The notes below the pieces were generated by a model. The model ran no database searches and was not told the DNA's origin. It saw nothing but the letters and a program-made list of their open reading frames with translations. Position numbers and translations under genes: made by a program. A DNA stretch of 64,000 nucleotides from Mucilaginibacter galii (GTDB lineage Bacteria > Bacteroidota > Bacteroidia > Sphingobacteriales > Sphingobacteriaceae): assembly GCF_014635825.1 (NCBI RefSeq), contig NZ_BMDO01000001.1, positions 558,001-622,000 on the forward strand, read 5' to 3'. This document shows, one piece after another, positions 28,614 to 61,336 of the stretch (positions are counted from its first letter, which is position 1; each line of letters opens with the position of its first letter).

Positions 28614-29151
28614 GCCGACAACTCTTCTAATATTTCTAATGTAAAAGTAGTACACAATTTCCACTTTCCTCCACTTTTCCCCACTAAAAAGTTATTAACA
28701 CCCACCGTGCATAACTTTACTCCCACCCACGCAAAACAATTATGTAAATACCTGATAGTGAATATTTTACTTTAAATTAATTTAGAGATATAAATTTTCT
28801 TAAAACTAAAATAACAGCCTGATTTTGAACCGAATGACGAGATAAGCCAGTGTTTAGCCAAGCATTAATTAGCCGTTCCTTAATTAATTTTATTTCCCTG
28901 AACCGGGTATTTTTATAAGTAAGTAATTAAGAATATTAACTTTTTAAAGAATTTGCCACTACGTTGAGATGCATGACGGGCATAATTTAGAGTGTTAAGC
29001 CATTGTTATATTGCTGTTTATGCTTAGTGAAGAACAGTAGTCCAGGCATATTTTGCCGATAACTCAAGGGTGGCCATTATTAAAGAGCAAAGCCCGGTTT
29101 GCTAAATCTATTTATGGGCAAGGCACAATATTTTCCTATCTTTCGTGCCTT
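28614..29151. other. Divergent intergenic region, dcw promoter side
   Basis: Holds the MraZ box and nearby TGGG motifs in the first 120 bases, then about 400 AT-rich bases up to purU in which I see no gene or RNA. Confidence 0.55.
28658..28686 (-). promoter_or_regulatory. Probable MraZ operator
   Basis: On the minus strand three direct repeats at 10-base spacing read GTGGGGAAAA, GTGGAGGAAA and GTGGAAATTG. MraZ of other bacteria binds direct GTGG/TGGG-containing repeats at about 10-base spacing upstream of mraZ. Further TGGG motifs lie at 28707-28733. Confidence 0.7.
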
Positions 29152-29976
29152 ATGATCGTAATTATTCAGTGCCGCGACCGGGTGGGTTTGGTGGCTGCTA
29201 TATCGGGCGAATTAACGCACGCCAAACTCAACATTATATCGATGGATGAGTTTGTGGACAAAGCCAACAACCGCTTCTTTGTTCGCCTTGATGTAGAGCA
29301 AACCATTAATAAACAACAACTGGAGTTTGAACTCAAACAACTACTGCCCGATGACGCTATAATTACCATAAACCCGGTGCCCGAAAAAAAGATAGTGGTG
29401 CTGGTCACTAAAGAATACCACTGCCTGGCAGATATACTGGTACGCAACTACTTTAAAACCCTGGGCGCCACCGTGCAATGTGTAATTGGCAATCATGATA
29501 CGCTGGCCGATGTTTGCCGCAGATTCGATATCCCATTTCACCACATTACGCACGAGCAGCCTAAGGAACAATTTGAGGATGCTATTGCACAAGCCATAGA
29601 GAACTATACACCCGACTATATAGTACTGGCTAAATTTATGCGGATACTATCCCCTGCGTTTGTGGCTCGTTTTGAAAAACGCCTCATTAATATACATCAT
29701 TCCTTTTTACCTGCCTTTGTAGGCGCCAGTCCGTACCGGCAGGCTTACGACCGCGGCGTTAAGCTTATTGGCGCCACTGCCCACTTTGTAACCAACGATT
29801 TGGATGAAGGGCCCATTATTGCCCAGCAAACCATCCCGGTGAACCATACCTATACCGCAGCCGATATGGTAAAGGCCGGGCGCGAAATTGAAACGGCCGT
29901 GCTGGCCAAAGCCTTGCAACTGGTATTTGAAGACAGGGTATTTGTTTATAAGAAAAAGACGGTAGTATTTGACTAA
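29152..29976 (+). CDS. purU: Formyltetrahydrofolate deformylase PurU
   Basis: Hydrolyses 10-formyl-tetrahydrofolate to formate and tetrahydrofolate, balancing one-carbon pools. The 274 residues have an N-terminal ACT domain (MIVIIQCRDRVGLVAAISG) and a formyltransferase-like catalytic domain with NIHHSFLPAF, GATAHFV and NDLDEGPII. The ATG at 29152 is preferred over one 33 codons upstream, since the ACT domain begins exactly there. A TATCTTTCG sequence just upstream resembles a -7 element but sits very close to the start. Confidence 0.95.
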   Translation: MIVIIQCRDRVGLVAAISGELTHAKLNIISMDEFVDKANNRFFVRLDVEQTINKQQLEFELKQLLPDDAIITINPVPEKKIVVLVTKEYHCLADILVRNYFKTLGATVQCVIGNHDTLADVCRRFDIPFHHITHEQPKEQFEDAIAQAIENYTPDYIVLAKFMRILSPAFVARFEKRLINIHHSFLPAFVGASPYRQAYDRGVKLIGATAHFVTNDLDEGPIIAQQTIPVNHTYTAADMVKAGREIETAVLAKALQLVFEDRVFVYKKKTVVFD

Positions 29977-29978
29977 AG

Positions 29979-30122
29979 AAGTCCCTCCCAACCCTCCTCG
30001 GGAGGGAGGGCTACATATAAAACATTCCAATTTATAGCAGACAAGAAACATTTAATATGAAAAAAATTAAAAAAACATCAATTTCAAAAACCCTCCCTCA
30101 CGGGGAGGGTTGGGTGGGGCTT
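29979..30122. repeat. Palindromic doublet straddling a lipoprotein start (family 1)
   Basis: Half-elements at 29979-30012 (just past purU) and 30086-30122 (inside the next gene), inverted relative to each other. The ATG at 30057 lies in the AT-rich spacer. Confidence 0.85.
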
Positions 30123-30497
30123 CTTTTATTACTATTTATAATTAGTGCCTTATTTACAGCCTGCAACAGCCAGAAAACGCAAACCGGTAAACCTACACTT
30201 GTTGGCAAATGGCAAATGACCGAAACCCTGGCCGATATTGGCGATGGCAAGGCTACCTGGACGCCTGTTTCTAAAGACAGCGTTCAGTATGTAGAGTTTA
30301 GTAAAGATGGCAAGGTAAGCGGCAATGCATTTTATAATACTACGGCCTACAAACTCGTTGACAGCAATCATGTCGAATTTTCTATCACCGGCAATACTTC
30401 GTTAATTACACACAGATATCAGGTAACTGCAACCACCTTGCTGCTTAACCCGCCTTGCCGCGAAGCCTGCGGTATGCGTTTTATACGAATGAAGTAA
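30057..30497 (+). CDS. Lipocalin-like lipoprotein with a repeat-encoded signal-peptide N-region
   Basis: A 146-residue lipoprotein. The hydrophobic core GLLLLLFIISALFTAC gives a lipobox with C36, followed by a lipocalin-like domain starting LVGKWQMTE. The basic N-region MKKIKKTSISK is followed by TLPHGEGWVG, encoded by a half-copy of the palindromic element, so the repeat supplies the stretch immediately before the hydrophobic core. The N-region is longer than normal (about 20 residues). Function unknown; a ligand-binding fold is inferred. Confidence 0.75.
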   Translation: MKKIKKTSISKTLPHGEGWVGLLLLLFIISALFTACNSQKTQTGKPTLVGKWQMTETLADIGDGKATWTPVSKDSVQYVEFSKDGKVSGNAFYNTTAYKLVDSNHVEFSITGNTSLITHRYQVTATTLLLNPPCREACGMRFIRMK

Positions 30498-31180: not shown

Positions 31181-31276
31181 AGCTTTTTGGGTATTAGCTA
31201 AATTTACCCTTATTAACTGTATCGTTCTACTAATACTTTCCGTATGGGTAACATACCATTTAAGCCGGATACGACC

Positions 31277-31669
31277 ATGATAAAATATTGCTTCATAATT
31301 ATTGCACTACTTGCTGTAAGCTGCAAAAAAGAGAATAGTAACCCCAATAGTGATAATATTGTGGGCAGGTGGCAGCTTACATCTTACGGAGGTGGCTTTG
31401 ATGGCAAAACGTATTATCCCGCCGCTAATGAAGTAACCATCATCACTTTTAATGCTGATGAAACTTATCTTAAAACAGTTAACGGTAATACCACAGCCAA
31501 CGGTAAATATTCCTTAGGGCAGGTTTTAAGCATATATTCGGGCAAAAACGATAATGCTTTAAAATTTGACAACCAGTCGAACTGGAACGTTATCAGCATA
31601 AAGAATACTACACTTGAAATTAACAGTAATGCTTACGATGGCGGCGGTTCAACCTATGTTAGAAAATAA
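31277..31669 (+). CDS. Small lipocalin-like lipoprotein
   Basis: A 130-residue lipoprotein with signal peptide MIKYCFIIIALLAVSC (C16) and a domain starting IVGRWQLTSYGGG, of the lipocalin-like type common in Bacteroidota. The ATG at 31277 is chosen over one 11 codons upstream because it puts a normal signal peptide at the N-terminus. It resembles the lipoprotein at 30.1 kb in overall plan, but the pair is not close in sequence. Function unknown. Confidence 0.7.
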   Translation: MIKYCFIIIALLAVSCKKENSNPNSDNIVGRWQLTSYGGGFDGKTYYPAANEVTIITFNADETYLKTVNGNTTANGKYSLGQVLSIYSGKNDNALKFDNQSNWNVISIKNTTLEINSNAYDGGGSTYVRK

Positions 31670-44616: not shown

Positions 44617-44648
44617 AAACCCCTCCCTTGCCCTCCCCAAGGAGGGAA
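44617..44648. repeat. GC-rich palindromic half-element (family 1)
   Basis: A single copy with a CCCTCCC...GGAGGGA core, directly past the membrane protein gene. A family 3 copy follows at once. Confidence 0.75.
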
Positions 44649-53629: not shown

Positions 53630-53662
53630 TAAACCCCTCCCTACCCTCCCCGGGGAGGGAAT
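53630..53662. repeat. GC-rich palindromic half-element (family 1)
   Basis: AAACCCCTCCCTACC with CCCCGGGGAGGGA core. A related but rearranged stretch lies at 53545-53600. Confidence 0.8.
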
Positions 53663-56158: not shown

Positions 56159-57898
56159 ATGGAAGTTGCACAGCAAGACGTACTAACCGCACCTGAAGAA
56201 AAAGCAGGCATCGAACTTTCGGGTTCGGCAGCGCTTTTAGAAGCTCTTTTAGTGGAAGGCGTAGATACCATTTTCGGTTACCCGGGTGGCGCTATTATGC
56301 CTATTTATGATGCTTTGTATGATTACAAAGAGAAGTTAAACCACATCCTGGTGCGCCATGAGCAAGGAGGCATCCACGCCGGACAGGGCTATGCCCGTTC
56401 ATCAGGCAAGGTCGGCGTCGTTTTTGCAACCAGCGGTCCGGGTGCTACTAACTTAGTAACCGGCTTGGCCGATGCTCAAATTGACAGCACGCCGTTGGTT
56501 TGTATCACTGGTCAGGTATTTGCTCATTTGCTAGGTACCGATGCTTTTCAGGAAACTGATGTGATCAACATCACTACCCCGGTAACCAAATGGAACTACC
56601 AGGTAACCGATGCCGAAGAAATCCCCGAGGCTATTGCCAAGGCATTTTACATAGCTCGTACCGGCAGACCAGGACCTGTGTTAATTGACATTACCAAGAA
56701 CGCGCAAATCCAGAAGTTCAACTTCAAGGGTTATACTCCTTGTAACCATATCCGCAGCTATCGTCCAAAACCTATTGTTCGCCCGCAATTTATTGAGCAG
56801 GCGGCAAAAGTAATTAACGAAGCCAAAAAGCCATTCATTCTTTGGGGACAGGGCGTATTGCTGGGTAGTGCCGAGCAAGAATTTAAAGCCTTTGTTGAAA
56901 AAAGCGGTATCCCGGCGGCATGGACTATCTTGGGCGCAGGTGCTATCCCAACAGATCATCCCCTGAACGTAGGTATGTTAGGCATGCATGGCAACTACGG
57001 ACCTAACGTGTTGACCAACGAATGCGATGTGCTTATTGCCATTGGTATGCGCTTTGACGACCGCGTAACCGGCCGTTTAGATAAATATGCCAAACAAGCC
57101 AAGGTCATCCATCTGGATATTGACCCAGCCGAAATAGACAAGAATGTTAAAACACACGTGCCTGTTTGGGGCGATTGCAAAGAAACCCTTCCCCTGTTAA
57201 CCAATTTAGTAGAAGCTAAACAACATACCGAATGGCTGGCAAAATTTAATGAATTTACCCGCCAGGAAGTGGAAGCCGTTATAGATGCAGAACTGCACCC
57301 TACCAGTGGCGAAATGACCATGGGTGAGGTGGTAGACCAACTGAACAACCTAACCAACGGCGATGCCATTATTGTAACCGATGTTGGCCAGCACCAAATG
57401 GTGGGCTGCCGATATGCCAAGTTCAATAAAACCCGCAGCAATATAACCAGCGGTGGTTTAGGTACCATGGGCTTTGCCCTTCCAGCTGCCATAGGTGCTA
57501 AATTTGGTGCGCAAGAAAGTACCGTGGTTGCCATTATTGGTGATGGCGGCTTCCAGATGACCTTGCAGGAACTAGGTACCATTATGCAAAGCGGCGTGGA
57601 TGTAAAGATCATCATCTTAAATAACCGCTTCTTAGGCATGGTGCGCCAATGGCAGGAGTTGTTTAACGAGCGCCGGTATTCATTTGTAGATATTCAAAGC
57701 CCCGATTTTGTACAGGTAGCTAAAGGATACGGCATAGCCGGTAAATGCATCAAAGAACGCGAAGAACTGCAATCTTCGCTAAAAGAAATGTTAGACCATA
57801 AAGGCTCTTTCTTACTCGAAGTATTTGTAACCAAGGAAAACAACGTATTCCCGATGGTACCACAGGGATGCAGTGTAAGCGAAATCAGATTAAAATAG
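56159..57898 (+). CDS. ilvB: Acetolactate synthase large subunit
   Basis: Thiamine-diphosphate enzyme condensing two pyruvates, or pyruvate with 2-oxobutyrate. The 579 residues include the catalytic Glu in VRHEQGGIHAGQGYAR (about 61), the FAD-binding middle domain, and the ThDP motif GDGGFQMTLQELGT...NNRFLGMVRQWQ. The ATG at 56159 is preferred over a TTG at 56150. The stop codon TAG is shared with the first bases of a palindromic element. Confidence 0.97.
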   Translation: MEVAQQDVLTAPEEKAGIELSGSAALLEALLVEGVDTIFGYPGGAIMPIYDALYDYKEKLNHILVRHEQGGIHAGQGYARSSGKVGVVFATSGPGATNLVTGLADAQIDSTPLVCITGQVFAHLLGTDAFQETDVINITTPVTKWNYQVTDAEEIPEAIAKAFYIARTGRPGPVLIDITKNAQIQKFNFKGYTPCNHIRSYRPKPIVRPQFIEQAAKVINEAKKPFILWGQGVLLGSAEQEFKAFVEKSGIPAAWTILGAGAIPTDHPLNVGMLGMHGNYGPNVLTNECDVLIAIGMRFDDRVTGRLDKYAKQAKVIHLDIDPAEIDKNVKTHVPVWGDCKETLPLLTNLVEAKQHTEWLAKFNEFTRQEVEAVIDAELHPTSGEMTMGEVVDQLNNLTNGDAIIVTDVGQHQMVGCRYAKFNKTRSNITSGGLGTMGFALPAAIGAKFGAQESTVVAIIGDGGFQMTLQELGTIMQSGVDVKIIILNNRFLGMVRQWQELFNERRYSFVDIQSPDFVQVAKGYGIAGKCIKEREELQSSLKEMLDHKGSFLLEVFVTKENNVFPMVPQGCSVSEIRLK

Positions 57899-58023
57899 CC
57901 CCTCCCAAACCCTCCCCGGGAGGGAGGGCTTAACAAGCAAAGCAATATACCATGAGTACAGAATTAAATAAAAACGATATAAATTCAAAAGTCCTCCCTA
58001 CCGGGGAGGATTTAGGAGGGGCT
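57896..58023. repeat. Palindromic doublet straddling the ilvN start (family 1)
   Basis: Half-elements at 57896-57932 and 57988-58023, inverted. The first begins in the ilvB stop codon; the second is translated within ilvN. The ilvN ATG (57952) lies in the spacer. Confidence 0.9.
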
Positions 58024-58608
58024 CGACAGGAATTTAACATTACTGTTTACACCGAAAACCAAATTGGTTTATTAAACCGCATTGCCATCATCTTCACCCG
58101 TCGTAAAATTAATATCGACAGCCTGAACACCTCTCCATCAGAAATTGAGAGCATTCACCGCTTCAATATTGTAATTACCGAAACCGAAGAAGTGGTACGC
58201 AAGGTTTGCCGCCAAATAGAAAAGCAGGTAGAGGTTTTAAAAGTATACTACCATACCAACGCCGATATTATTTGGCAGGAAATGGCACTCTATAAAGTGC
58301 CGGCCGATGTTATTGCCGAGAAAGCTTCGGTTGAGCGTTTATTGCGCGAGAACGGTGCCCGTGCCGTAGTGATCCGTAAGGATTATATCGTGTTCGAAAC
58401 CACCGGTCACCGTGAAGAAACCGATAACCTGATCAGCGTACTCCAGCCTTTTGGCCTCATTGAATTTGTACGCAGTGCCCGCATTGCCATTATTAAAGAC
58501 AGCGATGGCTTTAACCGCAAACTGCGCGAATTTGAACAGGATCAACCCGGTGAAGATGTAAACGAAAACGAATACCTGAACCAGGGGCAGAAAGTATTTA
58601 CCATGTAA
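57952..58608 (+). CDS. ilvN: Acetolactate synthase small subunit with a repeat-encoded N-terminus
   Basis: Regulatory subunit that binds branched-chain amino acids and activates IlvB. The 218 residues contain an ACT domain starting at FNITVYTENQIGLLNRIAI (about 28-46) and a C-terminal ACT-like domain (about 105-185). The first 27 residues are not part of the fold: residues 13-24 (KVLPTGEDLGGA) come from a half-copy of the palindromic element. Residues 1-12 come from the spacer. The rest appears intact. Confidence 0.93.
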   Translation: MSTELNKNDINSKVLPTGEDLGGARQEFNITVYTENQIGLLNRIAIIFTRRKINIDSLNTSPSEIESIHRFNIVITETEEVVRKVCRQIEKQVEVLKVYYHTNADIIWQEMALYKVPADVIAEKASVERLLRENGARAVVIRKDYIVFETTGHREETDNLISVLQPFGLIEFVRSARIAIIKDSDGFNRKLREFEQDQPGEDVNENEYLNQGQKVFTM

Positions 58609-59771: not shown

Positions 59772-59917
59772 GGCCCCTCCTAAATCCTCCCCGGAAGGGG
59801 AGGACTTTTAAATTACGATATTAGCGTAATTAAACTAACAGAAGAGAGAAGTAAATGTCAACTGAAAAGAATTTCAACAGCAGCTCCCTCCCTCCCGGGG
59901 AGGGCCGGGGAGGGGCT
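59770..59917. repeat. Palindromic doublet straddling the leuC start (family 1)
   Basis: Half-elements at 59770-59808 and 59882-59917, inverted. The first begins at the ilvC stop; the second is translated within leuC. The leuC ATG (59855) is in the spacer. Confidence 0.9.
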
Positions 59918-61336
59918 ACTTTATTTGATAAGATTTGGGATGCACACATTGTGAGCAGCAATGAGGGCTTCCCTGATGTATTGTACATCGATACACATTT
60001 TATACACGAGGTAACAAGTCCGCAGGCTTTTGATGGCTTACGCGACCGTGGCTTACCTGTTTTCAGGCCGAAACAAACCGTGGCCACAGCAGATCATAAC
60101 GTGCCTACCTGGGACCAGCACTTGCCTATTAAGGAAGAGCTTTCGCGTTACCAGGTAGATATGCTGACCAAAAACTGTGCAGAGTTTGGCATTGAACTTT
60201 ACGGCTTAGGCCACCCCTACCAAGGCATTGTACATGTAATTGGCCCCGAGCTGGGCATTACCCGTCCCGGTTGTACTTACGTTTGCGGCGATAGTCATAC
60301 CTCAACCCATGGTGCTTTTGGCGCTATTGCGTTTGGTATAGGTACCTCGCAGGTAGAGCAGGTAATGGCAACCCAATGCCTGTTGCAGCAACGCCCTAAA
60401 CGCATGAAAATTGAAGTAAACGGACAACTTCAAAAAGGCGTAGGCGCAAAAGATATTATCCTGTATATCATTTCCAAGATATCGGCTGCCGGCGGTACCG
60501 GTTATTTTGTGGAGTATGCTGGCGATGCCATCCGTTCACTGAGTATGGAAGGCCGCATGACAATCTGTAACATGAGCATTGAAATGGGCGCCCGCGGTGG
60601 TTTAATTGCACCCGATCAAACTACCATTGACTATGTTAACGGCCGCGAATTTGCCCCTAAAGGCGAAGAGTGGGATAAAGCGGCAGCCTACTGGCAAACC
60701 CTTTACTCTGATGAAGATGCCGTATTTGACAGCGAACTGTATTTTGATGCGGCCGATATTGAGCCGATGATCACCTACGGTACCAACCCGGGTATGGGCA
60801 TTGGCATTACGCAGCACGTGCCCGAAACCTCAAGTTTTGAAACCAAAGAGCAAGGCTCGTATGCCAATGCTTTAAAATATATGGGCCTGCACGATGATGA
60901 ATCGATGCTGGGCAAACCTATTGATTATGTATTCATTGGTAGCTGTACCAATTCGCGCATTGAAGATCTGCGTGAGGTAGCAGCTTTCATCAAAGGCAAG
61001 CAAAAGGCCGAAAATGTAACTGTTTGGGTAGTACCCGGCAGTAAGCAAGTACAGCTGCAAGCCATTGAAGAAGGCTTGGATAAAGTATTTGAAGCCGCAG
61101 GTTTCCCCTTGCGAGAACCAGGTTGCAGTGCCTGTTTAGGCATGAACGAGGATAAGATCCCCGCAGGTAAATACTGTGTATCTACCTCTAACCGCAACTT
61201 TGAAGGCAGACAAGGACCCAATTCACGCACATTCCTGGCCAGTCCGTTAACGGCAGCGGCGGCGGCGGTTACGGGTAAGATTACCGATATACGCGAGTTT
61301 TTGCTGTCTGAACCGGAATTTCAAGAATTAGTGTAA
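59855..61336 (+). CDS. leuC: 3-isopropylmalate dehydratase large subunit with a repeat-encoded N-terminus
   Basis: Iron-sulfur isomerase of leucine synthesis, acting with LeuD. The 493 residues carry the cluster ligands in [11 protein letters not shown] and GCSACLGMN, and [11 protein letters not shown]. The enzyme proper starts at [12 protein letters not shown] (about 22). Residues 10-21 ([12 protein letters not shown]) are read from the palindromic half-element, with no stop in frame, adding about 20 residues to the ordinary length. Confidence 0.95.

Follow-up and report, generated by a model that had tools for sequence, protein, structure and literature searches.

The window, the whole stretch of 64,000 nucleotides analysed here (positions 558001-622000 of contig C1 in the 4.86-Mb, 26-contig genome of Mucilaginibacter galii), carries purU, lpp and a DUF480 gene in this order, as assigned by family models, with two inverted halves of a palindromic element at the purU-lpp junction (Table 1). 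Both halves match an element profile constructed from copies in this genome, with E-values of 2.2e-7 for the left and 7.3e-8 for the right half; these are optimistic because the profile was refined with the hits it had produced, both lpp halves among them. The left half folds into a local hairpin of -19.7 kcal/mol (z -2.93), and the right half contains a 10-bp inner hairpin whose first base lies at +33 relative to the A of the start codon; as a whole, the right half folds at -18.5 kcal/mol with a z-score of only -1.37, and 22 of 200 shuffles fold equally well. A search for known structured RNAs (Rfam) in 29700-30400 gave nine hits, all below the gathering score and mostly to long-hairpin miRNA models, which are attributed to the long inverted repeat and taken as chance. 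A 114-codon ORF on the minus strand (29707-30051), likely spurious, runs through the left half antisense to purU.

Table 1. Features at the purU-lpp junction and at the second and third element pairs (window coordinates)
Feature	Position	Strand	Remarks
purU (formyltetrahydrofolate deformylase)	29143..29976	+	TIGR00655 347.6 bits (cut-off 285.95); PF00551, PF01842
Left half (L)	29980..30012	+	begins 3 nt after the purU stop
Spacer, 73 nt	30013..30085	+	contains the lpp leader, the start codon and the greater part of codons 1-10
Proposed lpp start ATG	30057..30059	+	A at -3; sole in-frame ATG ahead of the lipobox
lpp	30057..30497	+	predicted 146-aa Lipocalin_4-type lipoprotein; PF13648 23.3 bits (cut-off 22.4, marginal)
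Right half (R)	30086..30122	-	inverted relative to L; read on the + strand as K11 to L22
lpp codons 12-21	30090..30119	+	T-L-P-H-G-E-G-W-V-G
Rival start GTG	30114..30116	+	in frame, inside R; base uncommon at this position (5/115 resolved halves)
Hydrophobic core and lipobox, LLLLLFIISALFTAC	30120..30164	+	15 residues (14-15 in orthologues)
Lipobox Cys36	30162..30164	+	
Second L-spacer-R pair	57897..58023	.	R (57988-58023) in frame in the IlvN N-terminus
IlvN gene	57952..58608		TIGR00119 95.1 bits, alignment from residue 30
Third L-spacer-R pair	59773..59917	.	R (59886-59917) in frame in the LeuC N-terminus
LeuC gene	59855..61336		TIGR00170 690.3 bits, alignment from residue 21 at model position 3

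The lpp product reads MKKIKKTSISK-TLPHGEGWVG-LLLLLFIISALFTAC-NSQ... in the ORF translation and has the sequence features of a Sec/SPII signal, namely a basic n-region with a net charge of +4, a hydrophobic core whose script-computed hydropathy of 3.46 compares with 3.01-3.63 in orthologues, and a lipobox ending in Cys. The canonical lipobox carries Leu at -3 to the Cys; Phe occupies this position in lpp, which counts against the explanation preferred below. The initial annotation had described a palindromic element encoding part of a lipoprotein signal peptide, with residues 12-21 read from one half-element and leading directly into the core. Its coordinates and residues are correct: TLPHGEGWVG is read in frame from the profile-matched right half and is followed by LLLLLFIISALFTAC, and the profile boundaries add Lys11 and Leu22. 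The further statement that a repeat has become part of an export signal applies to the extended n-region and at most to the first core residues; the hydrophobic core and the lipobox are not element-derived. As also annotated, no second in-frame ATG precedes the lipobox, the next one lying 93 nt beyond the element and past the lipobox; the in-frame GTG inside the right half is absent from that annotation. Downstream of the DUF480 gene, a second small lipoprotein-like gene (31274-31669) scores 21.0 bits against the Lipocalin_4 cut-off of 22.4 and is thus sub-threshold.

Some match to the lpp protein is present in 53 of 149 genus genomes (own genome included), and 30 loci were fetched, among which five others (L010-L014) keep the purU-lpp-DUF480 order at 42-52% identity. 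Orthologues with a normal signal peptide, the check proposed with the initial annotation, are found at these positions: none of the five syntenic loci contains the right half, and all carry ordinary 19-residue lipoprotein signals (MEKKIYYLLAFVVVIFVAC, MKKKIYYLLAFIAVFFAAC, MMKKQLLFLILLSIIYTAC, MKTKIYYLIAFVIVALAAC and MKTKIFVILFTSVLVITAC). The window copy has 15 residues up to the Cys, as in MKTK-IYYLIAFVIVALAAC, preceded by 21 codons versus 4; over the set, 21 versus 4-5 codons stand before a core of similar length, giving the window lpp about 17 extra codons. By eye, a hairpin-like sequence of another kind lies directly 3' of the purU stop in two of the five orthologue loci. Six further genomes yield a strong purU match in three; DUF480 adjoins purU without lpp in two of these, and the third has neither lpp nor DUF480 in the fetched stretch. 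A match of G033:C26 to lpp residues 9-34 was set aside as a further element copy in a short frame, probably spurious (by eye).

Copies of the element and their placement

Searched across the whole genome with at most one mismatch, the element core gives 106 forward and 93 reverse matches, many sites being counted on both strands because the core is nearly palindromic, and the backwards-read pattern gives 0 + 0. With E-values up to 1, the profile detects 155 halves across C1 and 34 further stretches (1,392,458 bases), including 75 in C1, which is the only unbiased sample because the further stretches were picked around core copies. Across the genus, a rough half pattern is present in 83 of 149 genomes (own included), the own genome having the highest count. 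The repeat had been called mobile-like; high copy number and presence/absence differences are in keeping with an element that may have moved.

Within C1 (1,168,093 bases), 88 non-overlapping profile matches occur at E below 3. These include 31 neighbour pairs within 130 nt, ordered + then - in 30 of the 31; setting aside two weak pairs at 1067520-1067679 leaves 29 pairs (58 halves) with spacers of 12-79 nt, so that about 30 of the 88 matches are unpaired at this threshold. Pair partners in C1 are often of unlike subtypes (by eye). The spacers seem unrelated to one another, with a mean local alignment score of 7.54 versus 7.05 after shuffling (20 spacers of at least 25 nt); spacer conservation was rejected, the single pair that scores 31 versus shuffled maxima of 12-17 being ascribed by eye to half-like sequence within two spacers. 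Two typed right-half forms lack a stop codon in all six frames and a third has a stop in three of the six, a freedom that is partly compositional, since shuffling the typed form gives stop-free sequences in 21.6% of cases.

Predicted coding sequence makes up about 89% of C1, yet just 11 of the 68 C1 halves with E below 0.01 overlap it, four of them N-terminally (one in a doubtful 47-codon ORF), five C-terminally and two internally. For the 57 noncoding C1 halves, the outer end faces a stop codon in 31, at a distance of no more than 10 nt in 30 of these, and a start in 26, within the same distance in nine; single gene starts are approximate because the C1 gene calls come from a hexamer-based script. 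A predicted minus-strand gene (G000:C1:189116-189979) encloses an L-R pair at roughly codons 123-154.

In-frame right halves in other genes

The right half is read in frame in a series of unrelated genes, predicted to encode lpp, IlvN, LeuC, MiaB, AlaS and two secreted enzymes; the names LeuC, IlvN, MiaB and AlaS are assigned by family models. Insert fractions, biased because the loci are the best-scoring ones, amount to 16 of the 29 parsed loci for IlvN (30 fetched from 145 genomes with a match) and to four of the 30 best loci for LeuC (own, G085, G038 and G142; 143 genomes with a match). The half is missing in 13 IlvN loci, which have short forms such as MEKQEFNITVY, and the other 26 LeuC loci begin MGQT, MGKT or MAKT (MGQ/MGK/MAK-TLFDKIW). 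Seven of the 16 IlvN inserts begin MEN and element-free forms begin MEKQ, so that in these seven the ATG resembles the original start, behind which the insert follows after a few codons. By eye, seven of the 13 insert-free IlvN sequences show an intermediate form with LPEG, MPEG or MPQG, which is perhaps an element remnant. The next ATG after the right half is 258 nt off in IlvN and 243 nt off in LeuC, with conserved sequence in between; there being no ATG near the junction after the element, such N-termini should not be trimmed as spurious by annotators. In the LeuC loci of G140 and G141, two of these 26, the element pair is present with an ATG directly 3' of the right half. The window LeuC (59855-61336) has 21 N-terminal residues ahead of the conserved TLFDKIW, and the upstream junction is highly variable among the 30 loci.

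Internal positions are also occupied. In the own genome, MiaB (L149 2307-3821, minus strand) contains a complete in-frame L-spacer-R pair within one loop; judged by eye, related inserts of varying subtype fill this loop in at least 20 of 30 loci, L181 and L182 have no insert, and L170, L189 and L197 look decayed. AlaS (L144 2108-4900) has one right half in frame within a loop. Among 13 AlaS loops parsed from 20 loci, the half is found in the own genome and in G020 and is missing in 11, the G020 half occupying roughly the position of the own copy and belonging to another subtype.

Two adjacent own-genome genes carry a right half between the start and the hydrophobic core of a predicted signal peptide. 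They match beta-galactosidase and alpha-rhamnosidase families, with Pfam scores above and NCBIfam scores below the curated cut-offs. The beta-galactosidase-like gene has the half in three of 15 loci, from three species (own MQRIITIKSIKPSLPGRVGRGFCVGLLFIMLPGSLFAQ, G123 MYTTIFRKYLKPSPPGRVWVGLLLLLPFHVFAQ and G012 MLEFIRDQNIRSSLPGRIWVGLLFCLVPSTLFAQ; an element-free example is MKKQIIYLITALLPGSVFAQ), and the rhamnosidase-like gene has it in one of 15. These genes do not all read the element in one and the same frame. Read in the lpp frame, the common half form places Glu beside the core, where lpp, G123 and G012 have Val instead (three of three). The Val-making base occurs in five of 115 resolved own-genome halves, the lpp half included (16 of 131 are not resolved), and other species also have the variant in their LeuC and IlvN halves. 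Adaptation by a Glu-to-Val change is suggested at most, three of three signals being set beside a base rate from the own genome alone.

Counted from the A of the start codon, the hairpin starts at +29 to +38 in all but one of the 23 N-terminal cases measured (lpp 1, IlvN 16, LeuC 3, beta-galactosidase 3) and at +20 in the remaining one, these cases not being independent events because many of the IlvN ones are related by descent. The LeuC copy of G085, having no stem of 6 bp, was left out of the count, and for the own and G012 beta-galactosidases the ATG nearest the element was chosen among upstream ATGs. The rhamnosidase-like gene, outside the 23, is an exception, with its ATG 106 nt before the half. 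Collectively, the genes form a natural set, across species and unrelated proteins, of how bacteria tolerate or use repeat DNA in coding sequence: the distance from start codon to hairpin is similar in most measured cases, predicted export signals seem to survive the n-region insert, and element-derived residues are present in AlaS, IlvN and LeuC.

Interpretation of the purU-lpp junction

That repeat DNA forms part of a predicted export signal at lpp, as one instance of a broader pattern, is well supported by these comparisons. The junction very probably consists of inverted REP-like halves, the right one of which is translated from the ATG at 30057 into an elongated lipoprotein signal. Under this explanation, the left half adjoins the purU stop and the right half, just inside lpp, would be translated; initiation would take place at ATG 30057 within the A-rich spacer, the right-half hairpin some 33 nt downstream would be translated and contribute to a basic n-region of roughly 20 residues, and reading would continue into the orthologue-like hydrophobic core and lipobox, yielding an elongated, otherwise ordinary lipoprotein signal for predicted export and lipidation. 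An insertion, the presumed direction of change, would have been tolerated because signal-peptide n-regions are permissive and the common half forms are stop-free in any frame. Passages of PMC6847099 describe A at -3 as a positive determinant in Flavobacterium johnsoniae and nucleotides -20 to +20 as generally less paired in three bacteria; with its start about 33 nt downstream, the right-half hairpin lies outside this region, and a hairpin near +30 should therefore not block initiation.

A cis-regulatory RNA is a rather unlikely alternative, in which the L-R pair would form a long hairpin with the lpp start in its loop and ribosomes at the purU stop would open L, coupling translation; the translated peptide would be a by-product, and the two accounts are compatible. 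The computed minimum free energies favour L-R pairing over separate hairpins at lpp (-67.7 vs -38.5 kcal/mol), ilvN (-62.0 vs -39.1 kcal/mol) and leuC (-65.2 vs -52.1 kcal/mol), with 26-32 L-R base pairs across the three, and in all three cases the distance between L and the upstream stop is no more than 3 nt; any inverted pair, however, folds into an L-R hairpin by construction. The local right-half stem is 96% paired in 15 of the 16 IlvN halves (L220 left out), a value that none of 2000 permutations reaches, and paired swaps occur mainly at two positions, yet these positions are adjacent and change jointly, probably in one subtype event, and the four LeuC halves show no compensating change in the stem. 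Native ilvB-ilvN partners have a mean duplex energy of -45.7 versus -44.3 for swapped ones, which is not significant over 16 loci (3019 of 20000 permutations equally good); L-R co-evolution was rejected on these grounds, and selection on L-R pairing is therefore not claimed.

Initiation at ATG 30057, as preferred here, has a rival in the GTG at 30114, which is very improbable as the start. In that case, the element would serve as a leader providing a Shine-Dalgarno-like GGGGAGGG together with the start codon, GGAGG ending 5 nt upstream, and the resulting signal, MGLLLLLFIISALFTAC, would have 17 residues, nearer the orthologues' 19; such a start also needs the base seen in just five of 115 resolved halves, this copy included. 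Against this, the signal would lack any Lys or Arg, whereas orthologues have a net charge of +1 to +3, and the GTG has T at -3 and lies directly after the inner hairpin. In IlvN and LeuC, conserved sequence likewise follows the right half, and the nearest downstream ATG is at 258 and 243 nt, respectively. The abstracts of PMC6847099 and PMC9976891 describe the Bacteroidetes as naturally without Shine-Dalgarno sequences and their ribosomes as failing to recognise them. It is hardly credible, finally, that lpp has been decayed or unexpressed since insertion and that its 'signal peptide' is an annotation accident: the lack of lpp between purU and DUF480 in two of the three additional genomes in which purU matches strongly indicates a gene dispensable in the genus, but the 146-codon frame is intact and preserved by the insert, similarity to orthologues runs through the last residue, the domain match is just above the cut-off, and core and Cys are intact.

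With translation from ATG 30057 retained as the preferred explanation, a wider proposal can be put forward tentatively. The untagged REP-like dimers of the genus might prefer operon junctions and repeatedly donate N-terminal leaders, including working n-regions, with selection then removing acidic residues near the core. One half would possibly come to lie at the upstream stop and the other roughly 30 nt into the following gene, immediately beyond the initiation region.

Relation to known repeat systems

The element resembles the GTAG/CGTC REPs as presented in sections of PMC3733652: palindromes of 20-40 bp in high copy number, arranged as inverted dimers whose halves are frequently dissimilar and whose spacers, usually 20-100 bp long, may differ in sequence, located near ORF 3' ends, and with some copies within ORFs, including those of tRNA synthetases, N-terminal cases being reported. 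Unlike REPs, it carries neither tag above background, GTAG occurring in 13 of 131 halves (9.9% vs 12.0% background) and CGTC in four of 131 (3.1% vs 4.2%), and the genome's own Y1-transposase genes are flanked by other repeats. None of the four PF01797 matches in the genome has an element core within 1.5 kb, and a RAYT transposase was rejected as driver, the four matches sitting amid other repeats (judged by eye). Lacking the tags and not lying beside Y1 transposases, the element is therefore termed REP-like rather than a REP member. The same sections suspect many N-terminal REP cases of being untranslated and report Rickettsia conorii proteins with N-terminal RPE-1 as expressed in vivo; unlike the suspected cases, LeuC and IlvN here offer no ATG shortly downstream of the element.

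Palindromic repeats in frame within unrelated protein genes are likewise known from the Rickettsia RPEs (excerpts of PMC10969869), which by description are set apart as repeats of about 150 bp with a conserved peptide, whereas single halves of about 37 nt are read here in different frames and the spacer is unconserved. The Coxiella QMITEs, a different element type, are similar in that short repeats extend or interrupt ORFs in frame, and the wording 'signal peptide' is absent from the main text of PMC5896051. A repeat located in a predicted signal peptide had already been published in 2007; RU-2 in the enterobacterial YPO1552 covers residues 1-30 of such a peptide, including the start, according to parts of PMC2759123. 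At variance with RU-2, the half-element here lies between start and core, in three own-genome genes, and for one of these genes in two other species as well. Open-access literature yielded no description of the present repeat family, a Bacteroidetes/Sphingobacteriales repeat query giving PMC3733652 alone. Excerpts of PMC3733652, PMC10969869 and PMC2759123 contain no half-element n-region insert in three genes of one genome, no three-species recurrence for one gene and no regular ATG-to-hairpin distance.

Other repeats of the genome were also recorded. Within the Y1-transposase loci L095-L098, L096 and L097 lie next to each other, share their repeats and are near-copies, one of them truncated. 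A second palindromic family (like AAACCCCTCCCT..CCTCCCCAAGGAGGGAATT) has several repeats at C1 1167441-1167851, near the contig end, and occurs in the window at 44617-44647 and 53631-53660.
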